64,000 bases of DNA, from NCBI GenBank assembly GCA_030447305.1, contig JAUJPC010000003.1:186001-250000 (forward strand). The letters are read 5' to 3'. The DNA is from Actinomycetota bacterium (GTDB taxonomy: Bacteria > Actinomycetota > CADDZG01 > JAHWKV01). Both the position numbers and the translations under genes were made by a program. Shown here in pieces: positions 16,530 through 28,442 of this stretch (within the stretch, counting starts at the first letter, position 1; each line of letters starts with the position of its first letter). Below the pieces are notes generated by a model. The model worked only from the letters and a program-made list of their open reading frames with translations, had not been told where the DNA came from and searched no databases.

Positions 16530-17087
16530 TCAAGGAGCCGCTGCGCCGTCGGATTCTGCGCCGTCGGCTCCCACGCCGCCGCTAGCACCGCTTGCTCCTG
16601 CTCCGCCGCTGGTGCCACCACTGCCTGCATTGGCGCTGTCGCCGCCGTCGGCTCCATCGCCGCCCTGGCCGCTCCGAGCTTGGCCACCGTCGCCGTCGCC
16701 GCCCCGGCCGCCGATCCCGTCACCGCCCGTGCCGGCAGATCCCTCAGAAGTGGAGCTTCCTCCCCCTCCGCCATCGCCACCTCGAGCTTCGCCGCCGTCG
16801 CCGCCGTTACCACTGCCGCCTACCGTGCGGCCGCTGCTGCCACCGCTGCCGGCCCTGCCACCAGAGCCGCTATCGGCTCCTGAACCACCAGAGCCGCTCT
16901 CAACGACCTGTGCGTTGTCCCCGGTCTGGAGGTCGAATTCCTCGGAACATCCGGTGCCGGCTGCGGAGGCTTGGCCGGACGCAGTCGACGGACATTCGTT
17001 CTGAGCAACCGCACCTGGGATGACGGTGACCGCAACCACCATTGCCAGAAACAGAATCGCTGTGGGTACAGGTGAAAGTCTGCGCAT
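16530..17087 (-). CDS. Gly-rich secreted repeat protein, paralog 1
   Basis: Start ATG 17087 has GGAGG 6 nt upstream; 185 residues. A signal peptide covers about 1-28 (MRRLSPVPTAILFLAMVV...AVAQ). Two Cys follow, in QNECPS and GTGCSEEF, then a conserved block EFDLQTGDNAQ. The remaining 110 residues are low-complexity GGSG, GGDG and SGG repeats. No LPxTG or membrane anchor is present. It shares the block order of the two genes upstream on the same strand. The function is unknown; a matrix or cell-surface structural role is inferred from composition and from the neighbouring glycosyltransferase. Confidence 0.7.
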   Translation of the reverse strand: MRRLSPVPTAILFLAMVVAVTVIPGAVAQNECPSTASGQASAAGTGCSEEFDLQTGDNAQVVESGSGGSGADSGSGGRAGSGGSSGRTVGGSGNGGDGGEARGGDGGGGGSSTSEGSAGTGGDGIGGRGGDGDGGQARSGQGGDGADGGDSANAGSGGTSGGAGASGASGGVGADGAESDGAAAP

Positions 17088-17269
17088 GGAAGCCTCCAGT
17101 CTTACAGGTCGTAAAATGTGCGGCGGCAAAAGGCGCAGAAGTCAGACCTCCGTCCCTGCGGGTCATGTATATCAGGGTGATCTGCCTCAGGCCGGGATTT
17201 GAGAGTGAGTCGGGCGGGGTCATTACGGGGCTGTGCGACCTGGCCGCCAATCAGGAAGACGACAAATGA

Positions 17270-17302
17270 AAGGAAGGGCGGCCGGATGGCCGCCCCTTCC
17301 TT
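17270..17302 (-). terminator. Terminator of Gly-rich paralog 2
   Basis: A stem of AAGGAAGGG-CGGCC against GGCCGCCCCTTCCTT with one bulged base and loop GGAT, placed 26 bp after the stop at 17328. The minus-strand tail is T-containing. It closely resembles the hairpin at 18280-18312, so gene and terminator appear to have been duplicated together. Confidence 0.8.
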
Positions 17303-17327
17303 GTGAAGCTAGCTAGCTGTGGTTGCC

Positions 17328-18086
17328 TTAGCCGGCTCCGTTAGCTCCGTCAGCTCCGCCATCTCCGTCGACTCCGATGCCGCCGCTGGAACCGGCTGCG
17401 CCGGCGCCGCCGCTGGGGGCACCTTCGCCGCCTTCGCCGCTCTCGCCGCCTTCGCCGCCTTCGCCGCCGTCGCCGCTTTGAGCGTCGCCGCCGTCACCGT
17501 CGCCACCGGCGCCCCCGGTGCCGTTGCCGCCGTCGCCGCCGCCACAGCCACCGCCGCTGCCGTCGCAGACGCCGTTGCCGCCCGTGCCGCCGTCGCCGCC
17601 GCCACCGCTGGCGCCGTGGCCGATGGTTGCACCGGCGTACGCACCGCTGCCACCGGCTGCGCCGCCGCCGCCGCCGTCGCCGCCGACGCCGCCGCCGTTG
17701 CCGCCGTCGCCGCCGCTGCCGTCGCCACCGTCGCCGCCGTCGCCGCTGCCGCCCTCGGCGGCGCCGCTGTCGCCACCGGCGCCGCCTTCGCCGCCGTCGC
17801 CGCTGTCGCCGCCGGCGCCGCCGGCGCCGGTCTCAGCTGCCTGCTCGTTGTCGCCGGTCTCCAACTCGAATTCCTGCACGCAACCCGTGCCGGCGTTGCC
17901 GCCGACGTTGATGTCGCCAGCTTCTTCTTCGTCAGGGTCCGGGTCGGGGTCGGGGTCACCGTCCAGGTCGACGTCGACGAAGGGGAAGTTGTTCGCCGGA
18001 CAGAGGTTTTCTGCTACTGCGGTCGGGACCAACAGAGCCGCCGCGAGGGCGAGCATCATGAGGGTGCCCATGAGTTTCTTGATCAT
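17328..18086 (-). CDS. Gly/Asp-rich secreted repeat protein, paralog 2
   Basis: 252 residues, ribosome-binding site AGGAGGTAG before ATG. A signal peptide covers 1-25 (MIKKLMGTLMMLALAAALLV...AVAE). An Asp/Pro run (DLDGDPDPDPDPDEEE) is followed by NVGGNAGTGCVQEFELETGDNEQ, shared almost exactly with paralog 3. The rest is Gly/Asp/Ala repeat (GGDGGDGSGGDGG), interrupted at about 150-165 by the conserved island YAGATIGHGASGG. Cys occur in NLCP, GTGCV and VCDGSGGGC. It resembles no domain I can name; it is not a true RTX repeat because the aliphatic position is missing. Confidence 0.75.
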   Translation of the reverse strand: MIKKLMGTLMMLALAAALLVPTAVAENLCPANNFPFVDVDLDGDPDPDPDPDEEEAGDINVGGNAGTGCVQEFELETGDNEQAAETGAGGAGGDSGDGGEGGAGGDSGAAEGGSGDGGDGGDGSGGDGGNGGGVGGDGGGGGAAGGSGAYAGATIGHGASGGGGDGGTGGNGVCDGSGGGCGGGDGGNGTGGAGGDGDGGDAQSGDGGEGGEGGESGEGGEGAPSGGAGAAGSSGGIGVDGDGGADGANGAG

Positions 18087-18279
18087 TACTACCTCCTGTG
18101 CGTTTTCGAAGCTAAACCGAGTTCACATCTGGGATCGGTCAATATACTTACCGCTCGAGCAGATTCCGAGCCGGTGGTTGAACCCTATCAGATCCGCGGG
18201 TGAGAAAGTCAACGTTCCCAACGGATTTTGCAGTAAGTAAGTGCAGGGTTCTATGGGTCTTTTGGAAAGAGACAAAATG

Positions 18280-18312
18280 AAAGAAGGGGCGGCCGGAGGC
18301 CGCCCCTTCTTT
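18280..18312 (-). terminator. Terminator of Gly-rich paralog 3
   Basis: A perfect 15-bp stem AAAGAAGGGGCGGCC with loop GGA, 19 bp after the stop at 18332. The minus-strand continuation is TCATTTTGTC. Confidence 0.88.
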
Positions 18313-18331
18313 CTGTGAAGCTGCTCCTGGC

Positions 18332-19081
18332 TTAGGCGCCGCCGTCGTTTCCGTCGACTCCGATGCCGCCGCTGGCACCGGCTGCGCCAGCGCCACCGCT
18401 GGCTCCACCGTCACCCGCGTCGCCGCTGTCGCCACCGTCTCCGGCTTCGCCGCCTTCGCCGCTCTCAGCGTCGCCGCCTTCGCCGTCGCCACCGGCACCG
18501 CCGGTGCCGTTGCCGCCGTCGCCGCCGCCGAAGCCGCCGCCGCCGTCGCCGCCGTCGCCGTCGCTGCCGTCGCAGGCACCGTGGCCGCCATTGCCGCCGT
18601 CACCGCCGCCGCCGCTGGCGCCGTGGCCGATGGTTGCGCCGGCGTAGTGACCGCTGCCACCCGCCGCACCGCCGCCGCCGCCGTCGCCGCCGACGCCGCC
18701 GCCGTCGCCGCCGTCGCCACCGCTGCCGTCGCCGCCGTCGCCGCCGTCGCCGCTGCCGCCGGTCGCTGCGCCGCTGTCGCCGCCGTCGCCGCCGGCACCA
18801 CCCTCGCCGCTGTCGCCGCCGTCTCCGCCGTCACCGGTGACCGCCTCTTGCTCGTTGTCGCCGGTCTCTAGCTCAAACTCCTGCACGCAACCCGTGCCGG
18901 CGTTGCCGCCGACGTTGACGTCGCCGACTTCCTCGTCATCAGCGGCACCATCGCCATCAGCGTCTACGAAAACGATGGGCACGTTCACCGCGGGACATTC
19001 ATTCTCTGCCACTGCAGTCGGGACCAACAGAGCCGCCGCCAGGGCGAGCAACATGAGGGTACCCATGAGCTTCTTGATCAT
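18332..19081 (-). CDS. Gly/Asp-rich secreted repeat protein, paralog 3
   Basis: 249 residues, same AGGAGGTAG ribosome-binding site, and signal peptide nearly identical to paralog 2 (MIKKLMGTLMLLALAAALLV). The acidic linker (DADGDGAADDEE), the block GTGCVQEFELETGDNEQ and the island YAGATIGHGASGG are shared with paralog 2, and the remainder is GGDGGDG-type repeat. The close match, including the terminator, indicates a recent tandem duplication. The acidic Gly-rich composition suggests a hydrated or calcium-binding extracellular layer, which is inference only. Confidence 0.75.
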   Translation of the reverse strand: MIKKLMGTLMLLALAAALLVPTAVAENECPAVNVPIVFVDADGDGAADDEEVGDVNVGGNAGTGCVQEFELETGDNEQEAVTGDGGDGGDSGEGGAGGDGGDSGAATGGSGDGGDGGDGSGGDGGDGGGVGGDGGGGGAAGGSGHYAGATIGHGASGGGGDGGNGGHGACDGSDGDGGDGGGGFGGGDGGNGTGGAGGDGEGGDAESGEGGEAGDGGDSGDAGDGGASGGAGAAGASGGIGVDGNDGGA

Positions 19082-20347: not shown

Positions 20348-20442
20348 TCGGGTCTCATCTCTCGGGGGCCCTACGCTCCGGTACAGGCGGCACCGGAATC
20401 TTCGACGTTACAGCAGCCGAGTTAAACTTGGGGGCAATCAAC

Positions 20443-20470
20443 CAGTGTGGCCCAAGCAGTGTGGCCCAAG
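20443..20470 (+). repeat. Tandem 14-bp direct repeat before rsiG
   Basis: CAGTGTGGCCCAAG occurs twice head to tail, ending 20 bp before the rsiG start codon. It could be a regulator site or a recent duplication. A similar TGTGTGGCC core recurs at 24911 and 24938. Confidence 0.7.
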
Positions 20471-20489
20471 TTGGCCGGAGGATCCAGAC

Positions 20490-21026
20490 TTGCCCGAAAA
20501 GCGAGAAAGACGGGAGGACAGAATTCTGGATCCCGAATTCCTTACAGGTGTCGAATCGATTCCAACGGCCGACCTTCGCCTCCGGAGGGACGAATGCCGC
20601 GAGCTGGAGGCGGAATTCTCCTACGCTCGCCGCCTGCTCCAGGGCAAGATCGACATTCTCGCCTCCGAGCTGAAGCGCCGTTCGGAGGGGGGCGACTCGG
20701 GAATGGGTGATCTGGTCAGCCGGCTGCCCTCGATCCTTGCCGACGAGGCACGTTCCGGCCCTGCGACCCGCCTTCTGGCGACCGAGCTGCCCCGCAACGC
20801 CGGCAGGTACCGCCGGCAAACCGAGCGGCTGGCCACCGGGGTCGCCGATATCGAGTCCTCGTCCCCTGAGGAGCTGTCCGCCATGGTGGAGGAGCTTGCC
20901 GCAGAAGAGCGCAAGGTATCCGAAGACAGGCGCCGGGCACAGCAGATCATCGACGGGCTCAACGCAGAGCTGGTGAGGCGTTACCGGAAGGGTGAAGAGG
21001 ACCCCTCGGCCCTGCTGAGCTCTTAG
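20490..21026 (+). CDS. rsiG: RsiG-like c-di-GMP-binding anti-sigma factor
   Basis: I choose TTG 20490 because GGAGG lies 8 nt upstream; 178 residues. Two predicted helices carry the exact RsiG motif E-x3-S-x2-R-x3-Q-x3-D: E40-S44-R47-Q51-D55 and E140-S144-R147-Q151-D155, exactly 100 residues apart. In Streptomyces, RsiG uses these two helices to bind a c-di-GMP dimer and sequester the sigma factor WhiG. The double motif matches the Streptomyces type rather than the single-motif homodimer described for early-branching relatives. A c-di-GMP phosphodiesterase gene follows 9 bp downstream, which supports a c-di-GMP role. No whiG is in this window. Confidence 0.9.
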   Translation: MPEKRERREDRILDPEFLTGVESIPTADLRLRRDECRELEAEFSYARRLLQGKIDILASELKRRSEGGDSGMGDLVSRLPSILADEARSGPATRLLATELPRNAGRYRRQTERLATGVADIESSSPEELSAMVEELAAEERKVSEDRRRAQQIIDGLNAELVRRYRKGEEDPSALLSS

Positions 21027-21035
21027 GTCATTTGG

Positions 21036-21809
21036 ATGAGCCCCCACCCTCCGGAGGTGACCGAACCCGGCACCACGACGCCGTCCGAGTTCGACTCCGA
21101 GATGGATTACCGGGCGGAGCTGGAGCGAACCCGCTCCCAGCTGCTGGTATTCGCCCGCGACATGAGCGCCGTCCACCAGCGCAAACGTGAGCACGAACAA
21201 AGGCTGAGCGTGCTCCTGGAGGAGCTCCGGACCGACTACCTGTCCATCGTGGAGACTCTGGCTCTGGTTGTCGAGGCCAAGGACCGGTACACCTCCAACC
21301 ATCTCGAGAGGTGCAAGCGCTACGGCATAGCGCTCACCAGCAGGATAGATGCCGAGCTGATCACGCCCCAGCTGCAGTACGGCTTCCTGCTGCATGACGT
21401 GGGTAAGATCGGCATCCCGGAAGCCATCCTCATGAAGCCCGGACCGTTGACCGAGGAGGAGATGACCATCATGCGGACCCATCCGCTGATCGGCGTCCAG
21501 ATAGTAGCGCCGATGCGTCGGGTCCTCGACGACGTGACGGTCGAGGTGATCCGCCACCACCACGAACGTTTTGACGGCACCGGCTACCCCGAACGAAAGG
21601 CAGGGAGCGATATCCCGCTTTCGGCCCGGATCTTCAGCGTGGTCGACAGTTTCGACGCGATGACGTCGGACCGGCCCTACCGCAAGGCCCTGGCTCTGGA
21701 CGAGGCCCTGACCCGGCTGAGGGCCGAGTCGGGACGCCAGTTCGATCCCGACGTCGTGGCGGAGTTCGAGCAGCTGATGCAGAGCATCCAGTCCCCCGAA
21801 GACTGGTAG
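21036..21809 (+). CDS. HD-GYP domain cyclic-di-GMP phosphodiesterase
   Basis: 257 residues. Residues 25-75 look like a coiled coil. The HD-GYP domain has H120-D121 in LLHDVGKIGIPE and the second signature HHERFDGTGYP at 175-185, followed by FDAMTSDRPYR. These residues bind the metal pair and hydrolyse c-di-GMP. It lies 9 bp after rsiG and is probably co-translated, so it could lower the c-di-GMP that RsiG senses. No receiver or membrane domain is present; the coiled coil may be the input or partner surface. Confidence 0.92.
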   Translation: MSPHPPEVTEPGTTTPSEFDSEMDYRAELERTRSQLLVFARDMSAVHQRKREHEQRLSVLLEELRTDYLSIVETLALVVEAKDRYTSNHLERCKRYGIALTSRIDAELITPQLQYGFLLHDVGKIGIPEAILMKPGPLTEEEMTIMRTHPLIGVQIVAPMRRVLDDVTVEVIRHHHERFDGTGYPERKAGSDIPLSARIFSVVDSFDAMTSDRPYRKALALDEALTRLRAESGRQFDPDVVAEFEQLMQSIQSPEDW

Positions 21810-21857
21810 GCGTCCTGTTCGCAAGGCTACTTGCGTGGTTCTGCTAGCGTCGCCACT

Positions 21858-22865
21858 GTGGACATCAAGACTCATCAGGTTGCCGACGCCTTTGGGCTCC
21901 CGGAGTGGCAGACCCTCCTGAAAGCGGATCCCAACCGGCATATCTTTGCCGGTCCGGAGTGGAACCGGCTCTGGTGGGAGCGGTTTGGGGAAGGGAGCCA
22001 GGAGGGATTGGTGTTGACCTTTTGGGCTCCGGAGCCGGTTGCGCTTGCCGCCTTGACCATCGACCAGACGCCCGACGGCCGCAGGATGCGCTTTCTGGGG
22101 GGCGATGATCTGACCGACTACCAGGGTCCCCTCATCGCAGCCGAAGCGCATCGCCAGCCCGTGGCCGACGCGTTCCTTAGGTTCCTGGTCGAGGACTTCG
22201 ACGGCTGGGACTACCTCGAAGCCAAGGGGCTCCCCGTGCCCTTCCACTTCTCCGAATGGCTTGTCGAAGCGGCAGACCGAATGGGGCTCGCCTTCGACCT
22301 GGAGCTGCACGAGCTGACCGCCGTCCTGATGTTGCCTTCCCGGTGGGACGACTACCTGGCGGGGCTGGGGTCCAAGAAGCGGCATGAGCTCGCGCGAAAG
22401 ATGCGCCGTTTCGATCGAGAGGCGGGATCCGCAACCGTGAGAACGAGCGACGACGAGCGGCTAGAAACCGACATCGAAGCTTTCATCGAGCTCCATAAGG
22501 CCAGCGGGGGGGAGAAGGGTGAGTTCATGCTGCCGGCTCGGGAGGCCTTCTTCCGGGATGTGGCGGCCACCCTTCAGCCTCTTGGCATGCTGTCACTGGA
22601 CTTCCTAGAGCTTCAGGGCCGTCCGATTGCCGCCGCCATCTCGTTTCGCTACGACGGGGTCTTCTATCTCTACAACTCGGCGTACGACCTGTCGCTCCGA
22701 CCCATATCGCCGGGACTGATCCTTGTTGCCCGGCTGATAAGGCGGTCTATCGAGGAGGGAGCTCGTCGATTCGACTTTCTACGGGGCCGGGAGCGCTACA
22801 AATACGACCTTGGCGCTGAACCCATGCCCCTGCACTGGATATCAATACGTAAGCCTCCGAGGTAG
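21858..22865 (+). CDS. CelD/BcsL-like GNAT acetyltransferase
   Basis: 335 residues from GTG 21858. TAGCGT ends exactly 7 nt before this GTG, the spacing of a leaderless actinobacterial promoter; TTG 21831 would add nine residues. The protein matches the CelD/BcsL group of acetyltransferases, often linked to polysaccharide synthesis, with FAGPEWNRLWW near 30, the LGSKKRHELARKMRRF region near 175, and the closing RGRERYKYDLGAEP. Target and acyl donor are unknown. It sits between the c-di-GMP genes and an MshA-like glycosyltransferase. Confidence 0.75.
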   Translation: MDIKTHQVADAFGLPEWQTLLKADPNRHIFAGPEWNRLWWERFGEGSQEGLVLTFWAPEPVALAALTIDQTPDGRRMRFLGGDDLTDYQGPLIAAEAHRQPVADAFLRFLVEDFDGWDYLEAKGLPVPFHFSEWLVEAADRMGLAFDLELHELTAVLMLPSRWDDYLAGLGSKKRHELARKMRRFDREAGSATVRTSDDERLETDIEAFIELHKASGGEKGEFMLPAREAFFRDVAATLQPLGMLSLDFLELQGRPIAAAISFRYDGVFYLYNSAYDLSLRPISPGLILVARLIRRSIEEGARRFDFLRGRERYKYDLGAEPMPLHWISIRKPPR

Positions 22866-28031: not shown

Positions 28032-28442
28032 CTACTTTCCCAGTTGGAGGGTTAGCTCGCAGATAGCGCGCTCCAGCGTTTGGAGTCCCTCGGCTTTTCC
28101 TACGCAAAGGGCAACTCCGACGCGGGCGGCCTCCTGCTTCAGTTCCTTGTCCACGTAGGCGGTGTAGAGAATGATGTTCTGGTCCGGGGACTCCGCGAGG
28201 ATGCGGCGGGAGGCTTCCAGCCCGTTCATTCCGGCCATGGCATGGTCGATCACCATGACGCTCGGCCGGTGCTCCGCAGCCAGTTCGATCGCCTGAGCGC
28301 CACTGGAGCCCTGTCCAACGATGTTGAACCCGTCCAGGGTGAGAAGGGACACCAGCATGTCCAGGACGTGCTTGGTGTCGTCCACGACCACCAGATCTAT
28401 CGCCAAGTTCTTCCTTTCATCGGGACCGGTTGGCATCGCCAT
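28032..28442 (-). CDS. Single-domain response regulator
   Basis: 136 residues, a lone receiver domain. The acidic pair is VVVDD near 20, the phospho-acceptor Asp lies in VMVIDHAM near 65, the switch Thr in ILYTAY near 94, and the Lys in LCVGKAEG near 115. No output domain is attached. TTG inside (residue 13) next to GGAAG is a possible shorter start. No histidine kinase is adjacent. Its partner is unknown; single-domain regulators often act in phosphorelays. Confidence 0.85.
   Translation of the reverse strand: MAMPTGPDERKNLAIDLVVVDDTKHVLDMLVSLLTLDGFNIVGQGSSGAQAIELAAEHRPSVMVIDHAMAGMNGLEASRRILAESPDQNIILYTAYVDKELKQEAARVGVALCVGKAEGLQTLERAICELTLQLGK

Follow-up and report, generated by a model that had tools for sequence, protein, structure and literature searches.

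A twin-motif rsiG gene beside an HD-GYP gene: a probable reader–eraser pair for c-di-GMP in uncultured actinobacteria

The rsiG gene and its HD-GYP neighbour

The locus lies in the window, the 64-kb stretch of DNA analysed here, and comprises a gene for a twin-motif RsiG protein, a gene for an HD-GYP protein that starts after 9 intergenic bases on the same strand, and a gene for a FemAB/GNAT-like acyltransferase. Its features are as follows.

20490–21026, forward strand: rsiG, predicted c-di-GMP-dependent, twin-motif anti-sigma factor (178 aa, TTG start; from Pfam, PDB and AlphaFold)
20607–20654, forward strand: c-di-GMP motif 1, E40-x3-S44-x2-R47-x3-Q51-x3-D55, on predicted helix 26–65
20907–20954, forward strand: c-di-GMP motif 2, E140-x3-S144-x2-R147-x3-Q151-x3-D155, on predicted helix 126–166
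21036–21809, forward strand: hd-gyp, predicted stand-alone HD-GYP phosphodiesterase (257 aa; N-terminal helix 20–80, then the HD-GYP domain)
21282–21647, forward strand: HD-GYP active-site residues D83, H89, H120, D121, K124, H149, H175, H176 and D204, with Y85 standing in for the third-metal glutamate
21831–22865, forward strand: FemAB/GNAT-like acyltransferase (Pfam Acetyltransf_6, 107.6 bits), 21 bp after hd-gyp

Regarding rsiG, its TTG start at 20490 has GGAGG about 10 bases upstream and is kept in three congeneric species; the stop codon ends at 21026. The product scored 91.6 bits against the Pfam RsiG family (PF22802), in two stretches, and the closest solved protein was S. venezuelae RsiG (PDB 6pfj, E 5e-18), with single-motif RsiG proteins next. 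In the AlphaFold model (mean pLDDT 82), the motifs lie one apiece on two long helices (26–65 and 126–166), and no structures other than S. venezuelae RsiG chains (6pfv/6pfj first) matched it significantly; homology to that protein holds in both sequence and fold, which bears out the identity proposed in the earlier note.

Both motifs have the exact form E-x3-S-x2-R-x3-Q-x3-D at the residues given in that note, and the broader pattern that characterises twin-motif RsiG, E-x3-S-x2-R-x3-[QH]-x3-D, occurs twice, once per long helix. In an alignment of 21 homologues, the columns of motif 1 are invariant or nearly so; in motif 2, E, S, R and D are invariant and Q is variable. A chance origin of the motifs is ruled out, because the six-frame open reading frames of 984 kb of the genome (~839,000 residues) hold no exact copy beyond these two. 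The spacing of exactly 100 residues, claimed to be that of Streptomyces, did not hold: it is 99 in two Streptomyces and 98–107 in other relatives, a range that excludes it as a signature. From homology and the fold model, the product is a genuine twin-motif RsiG, predicted to bind c-di-GMP and WhiG.

As for the second gene, its product scored 115 bits against Pfam HD_5 and was related to PDB 4mcw (E 2e-35); the fold predicted by AlphaFold matches that of HD-GYP structures, and the 257 residues include no fused sensor domain. The HD pair, the HHExxDGxGYP motif and all seven shared metal ligands (H...HD...H...HH...D) are in place, as is the D183/K225 pair of PmGH; the enzyme is intact, as had been proposed, and with every shared ligand kept a degenerate HD-GYP is ruled out. 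The catalytic set is likewise intact in all other rsiG-linked HD-GYPs read. HD-GYP subgroups are defined by the residue at the position of PmGH E185 (PMC4159591), which is glutamate or aspartate in the trinuclear subgroup; there Y85 replaces the third-metal glutamate, so the protein falls outside that subgroup and into the Y/F one, which is probably dinuclear. Following PMC4159591 and PMC8177086, it should be a two-metal enzyme making pGpG. Compared with three congeners, dN/dS was 0.10–0.15 for rsiG and 0.08–0.11 for hd-gyp, and purifying selection acts on both genes (0.08–0.15 overall).

The two genes would be transcribed together, and the FemAB/GNAT-like gene, found in the same order in three other loci (L037, L039 and L040), belongs to the conserved block and is possibly co-transcribed as well. 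Searches near the rsiG/hd-gyp pair gave no sigma-70-type promoter or terminator above chance, no WhiG-type promoter was found upstream of the rsiG locus or of the cyclase gene described below, and the search for RNA families in the window gave only a tRNA.

Three other features of the window were recorded. A 676-residue open frame antisense to rsiG and hd-gyp (20355–22385, reverse strand) looks like a high-GC shadow frame and not a gene. Upstream of rsiG, the reverse strand encodes secreted glycine/aspartate-repeat proteins (16530–19081), two of them nearly alike (MIKKLMGTLM..VPTAVAEN.. followed by GDGG repeats), and genes resembling them also lie upstream of rsiG in L039 and L040. A stand-alone response-regulator receiver gene is found about 6 kb from the pair (28032–28442, reverse strand).

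Conservation of the gene pair

The pair is kept in seven of the eight genomes of the order and is tight in five of them, with a gap of 2–9 bp in the genus and in G254. In G147 and G093 the two genes lie 0.9–1.0 kb apart with an opposite-strand gene between them, so they cannot be a single simple operon there, and close linkage must have arisen, or been retained, in just some members of the order. Pairing is absent from G179, of the same order, and from 16 of 16 genomes of the sister order of the class.

Outside the class, 21 of 62 twin-motif genomes, the 21 belonging to eight families, carry a close HD-GYP relative immediately 3' of rsiG in the same orientation. The 62 genomes are a selected and not a random sample, with pairs called by comparing coordinates, and the count of 21 is probably too low, given contig ends and the strict threshold; if a genome has a few HD-GYP genes in every 3 Mb, chance alone would place one beside rsiG in well below 1% of genomes, by our estimate. 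Eight loci from six families (f8, f11, f12, f15, f58 and f66) have the order rsiG-receiver-HD-GYP, with a separate receiver-domain gene in the middle (L070 2011–3678, L254, L255, L256, L064, L253, L111 and L251). The stand-alone receiver at 28032–28442 is only ~30% identical to these receivers, which leaves its reading as a displaced member of such a cassette unsupported. A further locus, L061, has rsiG and the receiver without the HD-GYP gene.

In the tree, a weakly supported branch separates the rsiG-linked HD-GYPs from eight unlinked ones, a topology that fits one origin of the linked enzymes. The partner is not required by RsiG, since many lineages lack it: an HD-GYP neighbour was present in only 4 of 80 named RsiG loci, all four in metagenome-assembled genomes, and it was absent from the Geodermatophilaceae rsiG loci read and from within ~4.5 kb of rsiG in two Streptomyces loci. 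These loci rule out a universal association, just as conservation in relatives and beyond the class rules out a peculiarity of this genome. No standard rsiG locus with an HD-GYP partner was known to the earlier note, and this stands for the open-licence papers searched, none of which mentions rsiG beside an HD-GYP gene; among uncultured lineages, however, such loci are common, and the arrangement is thus not peculiar to this genome. The predicted reader and eraser of c-di-GMP appear to recur as a gene pair across many uncultured actinobacteria.

Adjacency of this kind could also reflect chromosomal inheritance without any functional link, the two genes travelling in a slowly changing block with FemAB-like and glycosyltransferase genes. 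A block of an HTH gene, a FemAB-like gene and a glycosyltransferase gene is indeed conserved near rsiG even where the HD-GYP gene is missing, and the absence of pairing from the sister order and from the Streptomyces loci is in line with this explanation. It is nevertheless unlikely, because ten families share the same-strand arrangement and a single type of HD-GYP although the spacing and the inserted receiver gene vary; moreover, both proteins concern one signal.

Some genomes contain several RsiG matches, six in G112 (including L091 4707–5174) and five in G063; these may represent several sigma–anti-sigma pairs.

WhiG, the c-di-GMP proteins and the proposed switch

The genome (2.88 Mb, 98% complete) encodes four sigma-70 proteins with region 3, one of which is WhiG-like. 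Among solved proteins it is closest to S. venezuelae WhiG (E 1e-80), in keeping with membership of the FliA/WhiG family; it scored 261 bits against the FliA_WhiG model, above the cut-off of 189.6, and 316.8 bits against the NCBIfam WhiG equivalog, below the cut-off of 343, and for this reason it is labelled WhiG-like, a probable orthologue of WhiG. Of the three WhiG residues known to contact c-di-GMP, it shares K57 and R62 and has A in place of G61. The gene sits between dprA and rpsB, in the order dprA-whiG-rpsB, which is also that of Streptomyces. This finding rules out the absence of WhiG from the genome, and agrees with the expectation that the sigma factor would be encoded elsewhere.

As for c-di-GMP itself, the genome has one GGDEF cyclase, a GAF-GGDEF protein with an intact GGEEF motif and the RxxD inhibition site, and one HD-GYP protein, the neighbour of RsiG; genome-wide searches for EAL and PilZ proteins found none. 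The circuit of this genome therefore looks minimal, with a single cyclase, a single phosphodiesterase and, in a genome-wide search that covered PilZ proteins, a single recognised receptor. The congeners have 2–3 GGDEF proteins each, so the one-cyclase economy is not a trait of the genus. The locus had been described as a self-contained c-di-GMP switch, an expression that proved too strong, since the genes for the cyclase and for WhiG lie on two further contigs, one on each.

The most economical account is that rsiG and hd-gyp are a reader–eraser pair for c-di-GMP, in which the HD-GYP protein lowers c-di-GMP and frees WhiG; we consider this probable from the predicted functions and gene order. 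At high c-di-GMP, RsiG would bind two molecules through its two motifs and hold the flagellar-type sigma factor WhiG inactive; the adjacent HD-GYP would hydrolyse c-di-GMP, probably to linear pGpG, upon which RsiG would release WhiG, and the freed sigma factor would transcribe its targets, likely including a Tad pilus operon. The level of the signal would be set by the only recognised cyclase and the only recognised phosphodiesterase of the genome.

This account presupposes that the HD-GYP acts on c-di-GMP. Some HD-GYP enzymes prefer pGpG or 3',3'-cGAMP (PMC8177086), and the tyrosine in place of the third-metal glutamate would be compatible with such a preference, in which case the signal of RsiG would not be erased. 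This appears very improbable: none of the seven shared ligands has been lost, nor has the D183/K225 pair, and a genome with an active-looking cyclase and no other recognised c-di-GMP phosphodiesterase would then be left without a recognised way to remove c-di-GMP.

A different possibility, which we regard as somewhat doubtful, is that the HD-GYP acts mainly by contact, docking on RsiG or WhiG and displacing the anti-sigma factor, or stripping bound c-di-GMP locally. The precedent is RmdB, an EAL phosphodiesterase that in Streptomyces antagonises RsiG by binding WhiG (PMC13232838); in the linked HD-GYPs a long N-terminal helix is preserved and a fused sensor domain is lacking, and a fixed adjacency would suit a protein complex. 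The HD-GYP is, however, unrelated to RmdB and has no GGDEF domain and, as the only recognised phosphodiesterase of the genome, it would suffice by bulk degradation, as the reader–eraser account has it.

As for the targets of WhiG, a tadE-tadG-cpaB-cpaE-cpaF-tadB operon has a WhiG-type promoter, TTAAGT-N13-GCCGATAA, ~90 bp upstream of it. A promoter with an identical layout is found ahead of a small HTH gene in the vicinity of a second Tad cluster. The promoter scan covered a third of the genome; within it, these two Tad-associated sites were the only ones with a perfect −10 and a near-consensus −35 element, and the total of WhiG-type hits was in modest excess (6 against ~1.5 expected). The promoter before the Tad operon suggests pili as one output of WhiG, a plausible one because in Rubrobacter the RsiG–WhiG switch was proposed to drive type IV pili (PMC8325347). 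The two Tad/Flp clusters preceded by these promoters are L199 and L200, on contigs C6 and C4 of this genome; in the C6 copy, the pilin gene is separated from the promoter-HTH gene by transposase-like genes.

Comparison with known systems

The RsiG–WhiG switch is known; the genetic wiring of rsiG with an HD-GYP gene is apparently new. The locus resembles the RsiG-(c-di-GMP)2-WhiG system of S. venezuelae (PDB 6pfj, 6pfv) in its twin-motif RsiG, with the motifs on two long helices, and in a WhiG partner gene between dprA and rpsB. It differs in that hd-gyp adjoins rsiG, unlike in the two Streptomyces loci, and these data hold no sign that the present organism sporulates.

The single-motif RsiG of Rubrobacter (PMC8325347) offers a second comparison: there too, a WhiG-type promoter precedes pilus genes, and c-di-GMP enzymes belong to the same regulatory theme. 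The present RsiG, with its two motifs, is expected to be a monomer, the candidate pili are of the Tad type, and its gene is paired with one for an HD-GYP.

Finally, RmdB of Streptomyces (PMC13232838) is likewise a c-di-GMP phosphodiesterase tied to the RsiG–WhiG complex; it is a GGDEF-EAL protein that binds WhiG via its GGDEF domain, whereas the present enzyme is an unrelated HD-GYP, linked to the complex by gene order only. The RmdB work, published in 2026, gave a first answer to the question of how the tight RsiG-c-di-GMP-WhiG complex comes apart, and the recurrent pairing of rsiG with a phosphodiesterase gene suggests that other actinobacteria solved its disassembly with an unrelated enzyme. 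Because its c-di-GMP circuit seems to be so small, this genome would also lend itself well to studying whether it is the local or the global pool of c-di-GMP that counts.
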